A DNA stretch of 42,607 nucleotides from a virus: IMG/VR virus record IMGVR_UViG_3300031692_000120, positions 1 through 42,607 of that record. One strand, written 5' to 3'. The notes under the pieces are model-generated. The model did no database searches, was not told where the DNA came from, and was given only the letters and a program-made list of their open reading frames with translations. Of the stretch, positions 3,339 to 34,572 are shown piece after piece. The position numbers and the translations under genes are program-made. How positions within the stretch are numbered: position 1 is the first letter of the stretch; each line of letters opens with the position of its first letter.

Positions 3339-3539
3339 TCATATTAAATGATTCTTAGAACAGTCAGGGCAAAAACGCATGTAATCCCAATCTGTTTTTC
3401 CCCTTAATCTTTTAAATCTCCATACCCATCCTTCGTTTATGAGCCGAATATTAAAACTGTCCTGTGACTCACCCGGCATAGGTGTAGCTGTAGTTTTACA
3501 TGCGTGATTAGGACATTTATATTTTTTTGATTTTACCAT
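3339..3539 (-). CDS. Small zinc-finger-like protein
   Basis: The 66-residue protein has two cysteine pairs, CPNHAC near the N-terminus and CPDC near the C-terminus, which could form one zinc-binding knuckle. GGAGG lies just upstream of the ATG at 3539. It is the last gene of the leftward early operon. Small zinc-ribbon proteins of this kind are common in phage early regions and mostly uncharacterised. An attC-like element immediately upstream places it just after a gene-cassette boundary. Confidence 0.6.
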   Translation of the reverse strand: MVKSKKYKCPNHACKTTATPMPGESQDSFNIRLINEGWVWRFKRLRGKTDWDYMRFCPDCSKNHLI

Positions 3540-3554
3540 ATTTCCTCCGAGATC

Positions 3555-3604
3555 CTAACATTAAGTTAACCGGCAGCTATGCTGTCCGGGTTGACGGGGA
3601 TTAT
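3555..3604 (-). repeat. attC-like element (copy A1), degenerate outer box
   Basis: Written on the plus strand, AAGTTAACCGG (3563-3573) and CAGC (3574-3577) pair with GCTG and the following CCGGGTTGAC (3581-3595), leaving T3585 and G3590 as unpaired bases on one arm. The outer end reads GTTAGGA on the minus strand, matching the GTTRRRY core of integron attC sites. The other outer box is weak (TAA/TTA only) and overlaps the stop codon of the upstream gene. A 37-bp core (3555-3591) recurs at 9753-9789 with one mismatch. Confidence 0.6.
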
Positions 3605-3882
3605 AAAGCAGCATATTCGTACTTGCTTCCTACTGTTTCAAATAAACATTCAAATGGTATTGAGCATTCTTCCTGTCTATTTGCTTCATGCCGGATATTA
3701 TAACAAATCATGCAGGTTTTAAATGTAAGCCATTCATCTTCCCAAAGCCCTTTTATTTTTTGATATATTTCTCCTGGATCAATATCCGATCCACACTCAC
3801 AGCATATATGTTTCTTGCGTGCTTTCGGGAAGGTTTCTTCCAATATTGATGGGAAATCTCCATCACAACTGCAATTACACAT
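3601..3882 (-). CDS. Cys-rich zinc-binding protein in an attC-bounded cassette
   Basis: The 93-residue protein is rich in cysteine: CNCSC at the start, CCECG at about 27-31 and CMIC at about 57-60, so it probably binds zinc. The core (HICCECGSDIDPGEIYQKI) resembles a small family frequent in phages, with no assigned function that I can state. The gene lies between two attC-type elements (3903-4027 upstream and 3555-3604 downstream), and its stop codon overlaps the downstream one, exactly as in an integron gene cassette. It is read leftward with the early operon. Confidence 0.7.
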   Translation of the reverse strand: MCNCSCDGDFPSILEETFPKARKKHICCECGSDIDPGEIYQKIKGLWEDEWLTFKTCMICYNIRHEANRQEECSIPFECLFETVGSKYEYAAL

Positions 3883-3902
3883 GAGTTATTCCTTTAGCCT
3901 CA

Positions 3903-4027
3903 TAACGCCCAAATAACCAGCCGGCGGTTAAAGCACCTTACCACAAGTTTGACAATAAGGCGCTCCTTTTAAATAATAAACTAAAGGATGCGTACATTCT
4001 GCCCGGTCTGCGTTTATTTGATGGTTA
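3903..4027 (-). repeat. Integron-type attC site (copy B1)
   Basis: On the plus strand TAAC (3903-3906) pairs with GTTA (4024-4027), leaving GCC and ATG as an unpaired spacer. CAAATAACCAGCCGG (3910-3924) then pairs over 15 bp with CCGGTCTGCGTTTATTTG and its flanking C (4003-4020), with T4007, C4011 and T4013 unpaired, all on one arm. This gives R, spacer, L with extrahelical bases and a variable centre: the layout of an attC site read in the same direction as the leftward genes. It includes the 3' end and stop of the 3928-4233 gene. Confidence 0.8.
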
Positions 4028-4233
4028 GAAAAAACGTAGTCTCTAAAATAACGGATGTAATCATAACATTTTTCCTGAAACTCAATGACGTCTTTATTAT
4101 ATTTAAATTCAATTTTACCGTCTGGGTGCAAAGTTATTTCAGGTATAGATGTCATCATAATTTGAGATAATGTTTTAAATACTGGTTCACATAATTTTTG
4201 AAATTCTATCTGTTTTTGTCTGAATTCTTCCAT
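3928..4233 (-). CDS. Hypothetical protein with C-terminal Cys/His motif, tail encoded by attC
   Basis: The 101-residue protein has a polar helical N-terminal part and a C-terminal CTHP...CQTCG motif that may bind zinc. The last ~33 residues, including NHQINADRAEC, are encoded within the attC-like element. The protein at 10115-10414 carries a matching NQQINSDQAPEC for the same reason, so the resemblance comes from the recombination site and not from shared ancestry of the whole proteins. The start overlaps the end of the upstream HNH gene by about 47 bases. No function is recognised. Confidence 0.6.
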   Translation of the reverse strand: MEEFRQKQIEFQKLCEPVFKTLSQIMMTSIPEITLHPDGKIEFKYNKDVIEFQEKCYDYIRYFRDYVFSNHQINADRAECTHPLVYYLKGAPYCQTCGKVL

Positions 4234-9752: not shown

Positions 9753-9808
9753 CTAACATTAAGTTAACCGTCAGCTATGCTGTCCGGGTGGTTGAATGAG
9801 TATTATGC
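9753..9808 (-). repeat. attC-like element (copy A2)
   Basis: A 37-bp core matches 3555-3591 with a single mismatch, including CTAACATTAAGTTAACCG and CAGCTATGCTGTCCGGGT. CAGC/GCTG close a 3-nt loop and AACC can pair with GGTT. The outer end reads GTTAGTT on the minus strand. Pairing of the far arm is poorer than in copy A1, so it may be an eroded attC. It follows the 9815-10072 gene in that gene's reading direction. Confidence 0.5.
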
Positions 9809-9814
9809 TTGAAA

Positions 9815-10072
9815 TTAACCACTGACTATCTCATGCCAGTTCTTATTAATAAGATCGATTATTTCTTTGCAAGTTCTTTTGCGCTCATAAGCTTTTTCCA
9901 TGGTTATTTTAGCTCTTTGTATATAGGTCTCATCGATAGGATCTTCATCCTTATTTAAAATAACTCCTAAATCAGGATATTCCTCAATAGCCCTGACTGA
10001 TGCATCAGAGACCGATTTGTCCAATGAATTTGATATTTTTGTTATTTCTTCAATTAATCGAATTCTATCCAT
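9815..10072 (-). CDS. Hypothetical helical protein in an attC-bounded cassette
   Basis: The 85-residue protein is charged and helical (start MDRIRLIEEITKISNSLDKS, later TMEKAYERKRTCKEIIDLIN). GGAGGGAAT lies upstream of the ATG. It is bounded by the attC-type site at 10089-10214 upstream and the attC-like element at 9753-9808 downstream, the same arrangement as the unrelated gene at 3601-3882. That fits an exchangeable gene cassette. No family is recognised and the product has no clear active site. Confidence 0.65.
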   Translation of the reverse strand: MDRIRLIEEITKISNSLDKSVSDASVRAIEEYPDLGVILNKDEDPIDETYIQRAKITMEKAYERKRTCKEIIDLINKNWHEIVSG

Positions 10073-10088: not shown

Positions 10089-10214
10089 TAACGCCCAAAT
10101 AACCAGCCGGGCGGTTAACGTTTTAAAGTATGAACTGGACAACTTTCATGCACTAAAGTATCTGGTTTAAAACAATTGCATTCAGGGGCCTGGTCTGAGT
10201 TTATTTGTTGGTTA
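10089..10214 (-). repeat. Integron-type attC site (copy B2)
   Basis: On the plus strand TAAC (10089-10092) pairs with GTTA (10211-10214), with GCC/TTG unpaired between the boxes. CAAATAACCAGCCGGGC (10096-10112) pairs over 17 bp with 10188-10207, leaving T10194, A10198 and T10200 unpaired on the same arm. The centre differs from copy B1, while the ends and the positions of the unpaired bases are conserved. This is what is expected of two attC sites, not of a simple duplicated gene. Confidence 0.82.
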
Positions 10215-10414
10215 TCTTTCTTCTCAAGTTTTAATTCAACTGGATCAATATAAAAAGCAGGTCCCCTAAAACCACAGGGGCACCATATTCTATATGCCTC
10301 CATGCTATTATTATCATCCCTAAATCCTTCAGGCCCGTGCAATTCGTGCCCACATTCTTTTTCAAGATGTTCAAAAGGGCACTTATACTTTGAATAATCT
10401 GCTTTATTTTTCAT
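10115..10414 (-). CDS. Cys-rich protein whose C-terminus is encoded by attC
   Basis: The 99-residue protein has several Cys/His positions (CPFEHLEKECGH, WCPCGF, CNCF, CPVH) that suggest zinc binding. The C-terminal ~33 residues, including NQQINSDQAPEC, come from the attC site at 10089-10214, which also supplies the stop codon. It begins 23 bases after the SbcC-like gene. Its N-terminal part does not resemble the other attC-ended protein. Function is unknown. Confidence 0.62.
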   Translation of the reverse strand: MKNKADYSKYKCPFEHLEKECGHELHGPEGFRDDNNSMEAYRIWCPCGFRGPAFYIDPVELKLEKKDNQQINSDQAPECNCFKPDTLVHESCPVHTLKR

Positions 10415-30556: not shown

Positions 30557-31014
30557 TGGCTGAAGACTTCCGGCGCGACGCAACCGAACATATGTACCTG
30601 GAAGACATTAAAGCCAGGGATATTGACAACCTGAAACTTGTTCACCAGAAACTTAAAGAGAAATGGTTCGATCATGAAAAAGTTGCTATGTTTTTTATGG
30701 GAGCTTTAACAAATGCATGCCTTTCAAAGCTTGGGATCGATCAGCTTTCAATGATGAAAAAATATCCAAATCGGCACCAGAGAGCATTTCTTGAAAAACT
30801 TATCGATAAAGAAATGAAAAAAGCTGATGTGAAAGTGGAGCGACGACGATATCCTGGAGAAAATTTCTGGAAGTCCGGAATCTATTTCTATCATCATAAT
30901 GAAATAGCATATTGGATCTCCGAACCCCTTAGAATTAAAGGGGGTAAGAAAAAATCTTCAGGCCTTATTATTCCGACCAATATTCAATATTTGGTTCGTC
31001 ATAATTATCAGTAG
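30556..31014 (+). CDS. Hypothetical virion-region protein, 152 aa
   Basis: A charged, largely helical protein (start MAEDFRRDATEHMYLEDIKA) with LIDKEMKKADVKVERRRYPG in the middle and a GGKKKSSGLI segment near the end. Its ATG shares one base with the stop of the preceding gene. No recognised motif. It was probably produced with the structural genes. Confidence 0.6.
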   Translation: MAEDFRRDATEHMYLEDIKARDIDNLKLVHQKLKEKWFDHEKVAMFFMGALTNACLSKLGIDQLSMMKKYPNRHQRAFLEKLIDKEMKKADVKVERRRYPGENFWKSGIYFYHHNEIAYWISEPLRIKGGKKKSSGLIIPTNIQYLVRHNYQ

Positions 31015-31023
31015 GAGACGCGT

Positions 31024-31638
31024 ATGATTTTTAAACGAAAAAAAAATAAGTATGATGATGACCAGGAGAAAAAAAGAAGAGGGATTGAAGTTAAAACCGG
31101 TACGAGTCGGCGTGGATTCTTGAAGTTTCTTGGCATCGGGTCAATTTCCGCTTCTTCAGCTTTGATATCTAGCGCTATTCCAATATCAGCAAAAACAAAG
31201 CTCATTATTGAAACAGAAGATAAAAAATTATTAGATTCAGAATATTCTGAATTACCCGCACTTTATAGAGAAGGCAAAGGCTATTTATATCAGGAGGAAA
31301 CTGGACGTTTCTATGTCTACAATGATAAACTCGCGAAACGATCCGATATGAAAATATTAGCTCCTGAATTATGTGAAAAGATTCATTCAGATATCAGGGT
31401 TGTCCAGGAATTTGAACGTAATTTCGAAAATAATCTGAAAAGATCCATTGAAAAAAGAGTAGAAAGAGAAATTGCTGGACCAGATGCAACAAGAAGCATG
31501 CTTAATAAAGAAGGTGATACCATATTATCATCTTCAATTCAGCGGCTTCCACTCAAGCATTCTTCAGGTCCTGTTAAGTGGGCAAAGCCTGAGGAGCTTA
31601 TCGAATCCGATATTATGAGGAAACCATATAAATCATGA
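31024..31638 (+). CDS. Protein with twin-arginine (Tat) type signal
   Basis: Residues 28-34 read SRRGFLK, an exact match to the Tat consensus S/T-R-R-x-F-L-K, followed by a moderately hydrophobic stretch FLGIGSISASSALISSAI and a PISAK end that could be a cleavage site. The 27 residues before it are highly charged (MIFKRKKNKYDDDQEKKRRG). The remaining ~145 residues are charged and helical and show no recognised enzyme domain. A Tat-exported protein encoded amid virion genes is unusual. It may instead be a membrane-interacting virion component. GGAGACGCGT lies upstream. Confidence 0.7.
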   Translation: MIFKRKKNKYDDDQEKKRRGIEVKTGTSRRGFLKFLGIGSISASSALISSAIPISAKTKLIIETEDKKLLDSEYSELPALYREGKGYLYQEETGRFYVYNDKLAKRSDMKILAPELCEKIHSDIRVVQEFERNFENNLKRSIEKRVEREIAGPDATRSMLNKEGDTILSSSIQRLPLKHSSGPVKWAKPEELIESDIMRKPYKS

Positions 31639-31681
31639 AGCGGCATAAATTTTTCAAAATATCATTTTATAGATAAAGCAA

Positions 31682-31906
31682 ATGATTAATATATGTCCTC
31701 AATGTGGAGTAAACGAAAAACATCCTAGGATTGATATTTGTTTGGATTGTCACGAACAGAATGTCAATGGTTTGAAAGAGATTCTTAGTCTTATTGAAAA
31801 AGGCCATTCCGATCACTGTGCTAAAAGGCAGGTATGGGGAGACGGTGAATGCGAATGTGATTTATACAAGAAAGGATATGATCCTTATGCTTGGCAAAAC
31901 CTATAA
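31682..31906 (+). CDS. Small zinc-ribbon protein, 74 aa
   Basis: CPQCGVNEKH and CLDCHEQ at the N-terminus form a CxxC-CxxC zinc ribbon; a CECD follows near the end. The first helix region (LKEILSLIEKGHSDHCAKR) is like small phage proteins of unknown function. No strong ribosome site is present. It ends the block before a promoter/terminator module. Confidence 0.55.
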   Translation: MINICPQCGVNEKHPRIDICLDCHEQNVNGLKEILSLIEKGHSDHCAKRQVWGDGECECDLYKKGYDPYAWQNL

Positions 31907-32010
31907 CCCACGCATCAACTCGGACCTGGCTAAAGACTGCCAGACCGGTTATGCGTAATATTTTCCTTTTCAGTGGTAGCAATAGAATCTTTCGGATTTA
32001 TAAAAAATAG

Positions 32011-33332: not shown

Positions 33333-34572
33333 ATGGCAGTTCAAGTAGCGGCAGGGACCCCTCAGTATAGCGGAAATTTTATCCCCGAAATATGGTCAGG
33401 TAATATGCTGATCAAATTTTATGCCACGACAGTGCTCGCGGCTATTTCCAATACCGAGTATGAGGGTTAACTTTTGATCTGGCCCTCACTAAACGCCTCT
33501 AATTGCTGGAACACCCTAAAACCTGTGTGCCACAGCGGAACTGGTAACAGTAAACGTAACGGCTCGAAAAGTCACAGGATGGAACAATGGGCAATCAGCA
33601 GCGAAGTGACCGGAAAACCGGTTAAACGTTCATCGACTAGGAAAAGTAGCCTAAACGAAAGCATGGCAAAATTCCCACGAACGGGGCGGATAATTTTCTC
33701 ATTTTACAAGAAAATTATCATGATATAGTCATTTCTACAGTGAAAGCTGTAGGGTTAGGATAAAGAGCCTAACTGTAAAACCAAAGGAGATTAAAACCAA
33801 GGGTGATAAGGTCAATATCCGGACCGTTCCTGATATTACTATCAGGAAGTATAAAAAGAATCTGGATCTTGAAATAGAGCATCCTGATAGTCCAATGGTA
33901 GAACTTAACATTGACCAGGCAAACTATTTTAACTTTATCTGTGATGACATTGATAAACATCAATCCGATCTTCCCCTGATGGATAAATTTTCGGATGATG
34001 CAGGTCAGCAAATGGGTATTTTTATTGATACCGAAATCCTGGCTGATATTTATGCCGACGCAGATACCTATAATGCGGGTATTACAGCTGGCAAAATAAG
34101 CAAAGACCTTAACTTTGGAATAACTGGGACACCTCTTCCAGTTACCAAGGCAGCTGTACTTGAGATTCTGGTTGATTGCAGAATTGCTCTTTCTGAACAG
34201 AATGTTGCGAAACAGAATAGATGGGGTGTTATACCTGAATGGATGGCGGGTATGATCATGAAATCAGACCTGAAAGATGCATCCCTGGCCGGTGACGGGA
34301 CCAGTATTATGCGTAATGGTCGGTTAGGTATGATAGCAGATTTAACTCTTTATGAGTCGAATCTTCTGTATTATGTCACTGATGGCAGTTACAGGGCTTA
34401 TCATGCGCTTGTGGGCCATAAATCGGCTCTGAGTTTTGCATCTCAGATGACAAATATGGAAACCCTGCGTACATCCCGAACCTTCGGAACCCTTGTAAGA
34501 GGACTCAACGTTTATGGTTATCAGGTCCTTAAAGGCGAATCTCTGATTGATCTTTATATCAGAAAAGGTTAA
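33333..34572 (+). CDS. Major capsid protein, gene split by a group I intron
   Basis: Exon 1 (33333-33467, 45 codons from ATG after AAGGAGG) ends NTEYEG, and an in-frame TAA follows at once. Exon 2 starts at 33787 with EIKTKGDKVNIRTVPDI and runs to 34572. Spliced, they give 306 residues with FIPEIWSGNMLIKFYATTV, the DITIRKYKK segment, WGVIPEWMAGMIMKSDLKDA, LAGDGTSIMRNGRLGM and a LVRGLNVYGYQV end, which matches the coat protein common in N4-gp56-like podoviruses. The coding frame is restored exactly at the codon boundary. Without splicing only a 45-residue fragment would form. Confidence 0.9.
33468..33786 (+). ncRNA. Group I self-splicing intron in the capsid gene
   Basis: The 319-nt insert has the group I core: P element AATTGCTGGAACACCCTAAA, Q element GGGCAATCAGCAGCGAAG, R element CGTTCATCGACTAGG and S element GATATAGTC. 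P7 pairs GACTA with TAGTC. P1 pairs exon end TGAGGGT with GCCCTCA, leaving the hallmark U-G at the 5' splice site. P8, P9 and P9.1 are clear hairpins. The intron ends in G before GAGATT. It contains no homing endonuclease gene, so it may rely on HNH genes elsewhere in the genome. Confidence 0.93.

Follow-up and report, generated by a model that had tools for sequence, protein, structure and literature searches.

Why does a small gene in what is presumed to be the early region of a phage lie between two elements that resemble the attC sites of bacterial integrons? The question is posed by a 42.6-kb phage contig (the window, meaning the whole stretch analysed), recognised as such from its virus record and from PHROGs matches to terminase, head-tail/portal, major head protein and DnaB-like helicase. 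The first-pass annotation had taken the gene at 3601-3882 for an integron-style cassette, bounded by an attC-type site and an attC-like element. From the window and its relatives it appears that the phage uses the bacterial cassette format for gene swapping. All of the sequences come from metagenome assemblies, and the same features recur in independent assemblies.

Layout of the two loci

Two loci on the minus strand of the presumed early region share a common layout of element B, small gene and element A. Locus 1 consists of B1 (3903-4027), the 93-aa gene of the earlier annotation (3601-3882) and A1 (3555-3604), and the order of attC, gene and attC-derived element along the reading direction described there is confirmed. 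Locus 2 consists of B2 (10089-10214), an 85-aa gene (9815-10072) and A2 (9753-9789). The two central genes are unrelated, and the similarity between the B elements is confined to their ends. The 93-aa gene is related to PHROG 7314 / 19515, of unknown function, and has phage relatives at <60% identity. The 85-aa gene and a 66-aa minus-strand gene downstream of A1 (3339-3539) are both common to the close relative G2 described below, the latter marking the collinear backbone after locus 1.

B1 and B2 have the structure of attC sites

On the minus strand B1 reads TTCTAAC-CAT-CAAAT[A]AAC[G]CAG[A]CCGG ... CCGG-CTG-GTT-ATTTG-GGC-GTTATGA. Its R'' side comprises R'' (4024-4030), a spacer (4021-4023) and L'' (4007-4020, with extra bases at 4015, 4011 and 4007), and its R' side comprises L' (3910-3920), a spacer (3907-3909) and R' (3900-3906, GTTATGA). 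The paired TAAC/GTTA boxes, the 3-nt spacer on each side, the 15-bp inner helix (5+3+3+4) and its three single unpaired bases, which are confined to the R'' arm, are thus as first reported, and the stop codons of both genes do lie inside the elements. In gene direction B1 and B2 alike run YAAC, 3-nt spacer, 5 bp-X-3 bp-X-3 bp-A and loop, followed by an uninterrupted 3' arm, a 3-nt spacer and GTTA. Both have inverted boxes (TTCTAAC/GTTATGA in B1, AGATAAC/GTTACGC in B2), with GTTRRRY matches of 5/7 and 6/7 respectively, like many of the control Vibrio sites. The unpaired central spacers, CAT/GGC in B1 and CAA/GGC in B2, are A-rich on the R'' arm and GC-rich on the R' arm, in agreement with the published asymmetry of the Vibrio cholerae VCR (PMC2727003). 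Extrahelical bases stand at set positions on the R''-L'' arm only, and their 4-nt spacing is that of G16, T20 and T24 in the VCR (PMC2727003). On the bottom strand, T stands as the first extra base; in the VCR this substitution lowered excision 68-fold (PMC2727003), which counts against the explanation favoured below. For the B1 bottom strand the attC structure is the minimum-energy fold; in overall fold energy the B sites are unremarkable (z -0.81 for B1), and an Rfam search at the site returned nothing convincing.

A script for strict geometry (3/3 spacers, 11/11 Watson-Crick pairs, third extra base A) was run on control phages, where it recovers most of the Vibrio attCs (14 with 3-nt spacers) and several of those from Shewanella. 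Across the window the exact geometry is found at B1 and B2 only, both 11/11 paired and gene-oriented, and in none of 400 first-order Markov shuffles of the window. A covariance model (R2), home-made and roughly calibrated, was built solely from 13 Vibrio and Shewanella attCs with the loop masked. It places B2 first in the window (22.4 bits, E 0.0027) and B1 second (21.8 bits, E 0.0036), the next match having E 0.078, and so B1 stands above background in a covariance test of the kind that the first-pass annotation had proposed. The scores are somewhat lower than those of Shewanella attCs held outside the training set (about 25-38 bits), which counts against the explanation favoured below; the site in phage contig G6 reaches 36.9 bits. 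An earlier, loop-less covariance model was unable to span the 125-nt sites, matched the window only at short, AT-rich places and was replaced. A looser attC finder also ranked B1 and B2 top, and was not relied on, a score of 18.5 being reached in 4 of 100 shuffles.

Among six phage sites from the window, G2 and G6, double compensatory changes occur at 5 of the 15 pairs, a count that leans towards structure as all six sites were chosen for their attC look and one (G6_s1) was picked by eye. In the alignment of these six, 96.7% of cells are paired, and none of 500 column shuffles reached the covariation score. That the elements are instead terminators, regulatory hairpins or conserved protein tails would suit their position at gene ends and the similar QINxD-like peptide that the 5' arm encodes in several genes. 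However, the 3' arm and the 5' arm covary although the former is non-coding, the extra bases occupy the three positions known from the VCR and a model of known attCs detects B1 and B2, so that this reading is very improbable. Covariance model, geometry, polarity and compensatory change support B1 as an attC site.

A1 and A2 are eroded sites

A1 (3555-3604, minus strand) retains R' (GTTAGGA), L' and an intact inner hairpin, whereas its R'' and outer L'' are eroded. Its L'-R' side (GCCGGTTAACTTAATGTTAG) is identical, in register, to a canonical attC of phage contig G3, whose attC array is similar to that of phage TJE1. A2 (9753-9789, minus strand) is a second copy, a 37-nt direct repeat 97% identical to A1, and is also present in G2. 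In neither do R'' and outer L'' pair, and A1 was missed by the strict-geometry script. A1 and A2 are eroded attC sites. The claim of an attC-like element at A1 therefore stands for its presence, its R'/L' half and its inner hairpin, and fails for the unpaired R'' and outer L''. Since A1 is eroded, the gene at 3601-3882, although a cassette by its layout, is probably no longer an excisable one. Matches to an A1 pattern in three other phage contigs (L003, L006, L007) were dismissed as chance, lying within one coding region of these phages.

Separately, a 38.8-kb phage contig (IMGVR_UViG_3300028857_000015; L020, 16897-18198) carries four canonical attCs in tandem, and one of the four almost matches an attC from Tetrasphaera phage TJE1 in sequence.

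A close relative carries other gene and attC units at the same places

The relative G2 (IMGVR_UViG_3300031552_000006, 55.9 kb) has a 127-bp terminal repeat and is therefore taken as complete; it is about 97% identical to the window over most of the latter's length. At locus 1 its gene (109 aa), the attC that goes with it (33384-33444) and the gene upstream all differ from those of the window, the downstream gene being the same. At locus 2 the 85-aa gene and A2 are kept, and upstream of them stand three other gene and attC units against one in the window. Gene and attC units at the same places thus differ between the two genomes, a comparison of gene content that covered only these two close genomes, and the joins are compatible with IntI or with homologous recombination. 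At locus 2 the two sequences pass from unrelated to about 99% identical where the attC 3' arm starts, a switch that fits IntI action at G|TT, the arm being conserved, and equally homologous recombination within the arm. At locus 1 collinearity begins about 9 nt past GTT. A relative that differs at the attC sites thus exists, since G2 has a different gene and attC in the same place, and neither of the outcomes that the first-pass annotation had named as refuting its reading was obtained; the locus-1 join, however, is not clean at G|TT.

The inexact locus-1 join, the locus-2 switch where the 3' arm starts and the SbcC/SbcD-like genes that adjoin locus 2 would all sit well with another view, in which the elements are true attCs by descent and now serve as passive repeats, with the phage's own homologous recombination or annealing between the arms and no IntI acting. 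Passive repeats, however, would not need compensatory changes that keep pairing and extra-base positions across differing sites, and entire gene and attC units differ between close relatives; all considered, we regard this alternative as real though rather unlikely.

Beyond these loci the two genomes differ elsewhere. Positions 1-802 of the window hold 129-bp tandem repeats encoding a 43-aa repeat (SLSYLGNGIALAGTxPNGKIYRSVDYGATWTDLGQQGSETYI), the copy number of which differs in G2. A segment of about 950 bp (31021-31971), with a single 204-aa gene (31024-31638, no PHROG match), is cleanly missing from G2. A group I intron (33371-33752; Rfam RF00028, 72.5 bits) lies beside the major head protein gene, and G2 is without about 317 bp there (window 33470-33787), making an intron presence/absence pair. 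Conversely G2 has a 1.05-kb insert after the portal gene (L013, 6086-7142) that is missing from the window; it terminates in a hairpin of attC-like form, the R' side of which meets the backbone exactly at |TTAATAATTC. Since its other end is not clean, the insert is not taken to prove insertion by IntI.

Genes read through their attC sites

In B-type sites the open reading frame of the gene crosses R'', L'' and loop without a change of frame and in most cases encodes a QINxD-like stretch and a Cys-rich end, whereas the Vibrio and Shewanella control genes stop at or near R''. The 101-aa gene that owns B1 (3928-4233, minus strand) crosses R'', L'' and loop and has its stop just before the 3' arm, with a C-terminal end of NHQINADRAECTHP...CQTCGKVL; it has no Pfam or PHROG match and no relative in viral_contigs. 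At B2 the 99-aa gene N1 (10115-10414, minus strand) is fused in frame to the tail (DNQQINSDQAPECNCFKPDTLVHESCPVHTLKR). It reads ...LKLEKK-DNQQINSD... and then on through the attC, and its tail-less relatives in G2 (30883-31068) and in two further contigs (L030, L031) end at or soon after this point with no attC. A second gene, N2, of about 49-55 aa, is tail-less in four IMG/VR phage contigs (L033-L036), has an attC tail in G2 and another attC tail in G6.

The tail of N2 in G2 is the loop and 3' arm of window B2, identical over about 78 nt, with 6 differences in about 22 nt of the 5' arm. It follows that attC modules have become attached to more than one phage gene, and that some of the switches fall within the 5' arm. 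Recombination between passive repeats would account for this long identity beside a differing 5' arm, and the switch inside the 5' arm, like the locus-1 join off G|TT, is not what IntI predicts and counts against the explanation favoured here.

Relatives of N1, N2 and the 93-aa gene occur in phages, and apart from those in G2 and G6 none was observed to carry such a site; a search of the named phage collection for the B-type arm, N1, N2 and the 85-aa gene yielded no relatives. From the tail-less relatives in several phages we infer that the tail was gained rather than lost, and the pattern looks like cassette genesis in phages. It is quite possible, although we put it forward tentatively, that phages make integron cassettes, in that ordinary small phage genes such as N1 and N2 gain a 3' attC, the loop of which encodes a Cys-rich read-through tail, and the arms let genes and tails swap between phages.

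Tails of the same read-through, Cys-rich kind also occur in a 64-kb phage contig (IMGVR_UViG_3300031354_000002; L008 / L018, 2300-3300) with at least three tandem attC-like sites, yet with no backbone similarity to the window.

Integrase and source of the cassettes

A search with PF00589 and TIGR02249 that did detect the integron integrases of control phages gave no match in the window or in G2, G3 and G6, and no tyrosine recombinase was recognised in any of the four. The statement that no integrase is visible accordingly holds, for the window and for the complete G2, and neither of the two qualifies as a complete integron, which has an intI gene and an attI site. Any IntI must then come from the host; the missing integrase is also what passive repeats would lead one to expect. 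With attC sites and no integrase the set is CALIN-like, a CALIN being defined by two or more attC sites that lack an integron integrase, although B1 and B2, about 6.2 kb apart, are a scattered pair and not one cluster, while G2 has an array of several.

The first-pass annotation had suggested that the cassettes may come from a host integron. Their capture from a bacterial chromosomal integron has in its favour that Vibrio phages carry pieces of host integron (PMC9892861) and that the site type is that of bacterial chromosomal attCs. Against it, no host integron with such sites was found, and the sole match to the site pattern in genome_contigs is a chance one, in an acidobacterial phosphatase-like coding gene; the traceable tail-less relatives are phage genes, and N1, N2 and the 93-aa gene look like phage genes having gained an attC. 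The suggestion is thus not supported, and we consider host capture improbable.

The explanation that we favour, and think on balance probable, is that VCR-type attCs sit on small early phage genes in CALIN-like arrays at two loci, where a host IntI acts at G|TT and homologous recombination probably acts as well. The arrays are short, of one to a few genes each, and lie in the early operon. During infection a host-supplied integron integrase would bind the folded bottom strand and join cassettes at G|TT. Genes and tails are probably shifted by homologous recombination too, between attC arms that are almost identical, which would explain the joins away from G|TT, and the eroded A1 and A2 probably fix their cassettes in place.

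Comparison with known systems

To our knowledge cassette genesis, that is how genes acquire an attC, is not settled. With the same gene found with and without an attC, and one attC found on different genes, it becomes directly testable, and some of these comparisons are between phages only a few per cent apart. If cassettes do arise in this way, phages can be a source and a carrier of them, beyond being occasional hosts of passengers. A literature search, in which few subscription papers were covered, found no description of gene replacement at attC between close phages, of natural attCs read through as C-terminal tails or of the same attC on different phage genes.

Integrase-less attC clusters (CALINs) in the lytic phages TJE1, P12002L and PH101 were reported in 2023 by Qi et al. 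(PMC9892861), and 5 of the 6 phage attCs tested there worked as IntI1 substrates. The loci described here are like these in having attCs after small phage genes, no integrase and a lytic type of phage, and unlike them in their VCR geometry, their two loci, the genes that read through the sites and a relative of about 97% identity with different cassettes at the same sites. With the VCR-type attCs of Vibrio (chromosomal integrons; control phage MK672802) B1 and B2 share boxes, spacers, extra-base positions and a similar loop length. They differ in that the first extra base is not the canonical G and that the loops are coding, whereas in Vibrio the genes have their stop at R''. The synthetic attC sites that Nivina et al. 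placed within coding genes (described in PMC8618304) resemble the present sites in having an attC inside an open reading frame; those of the phages are natural, always C-terminal, and have the stop between the loop and the 3' arm.
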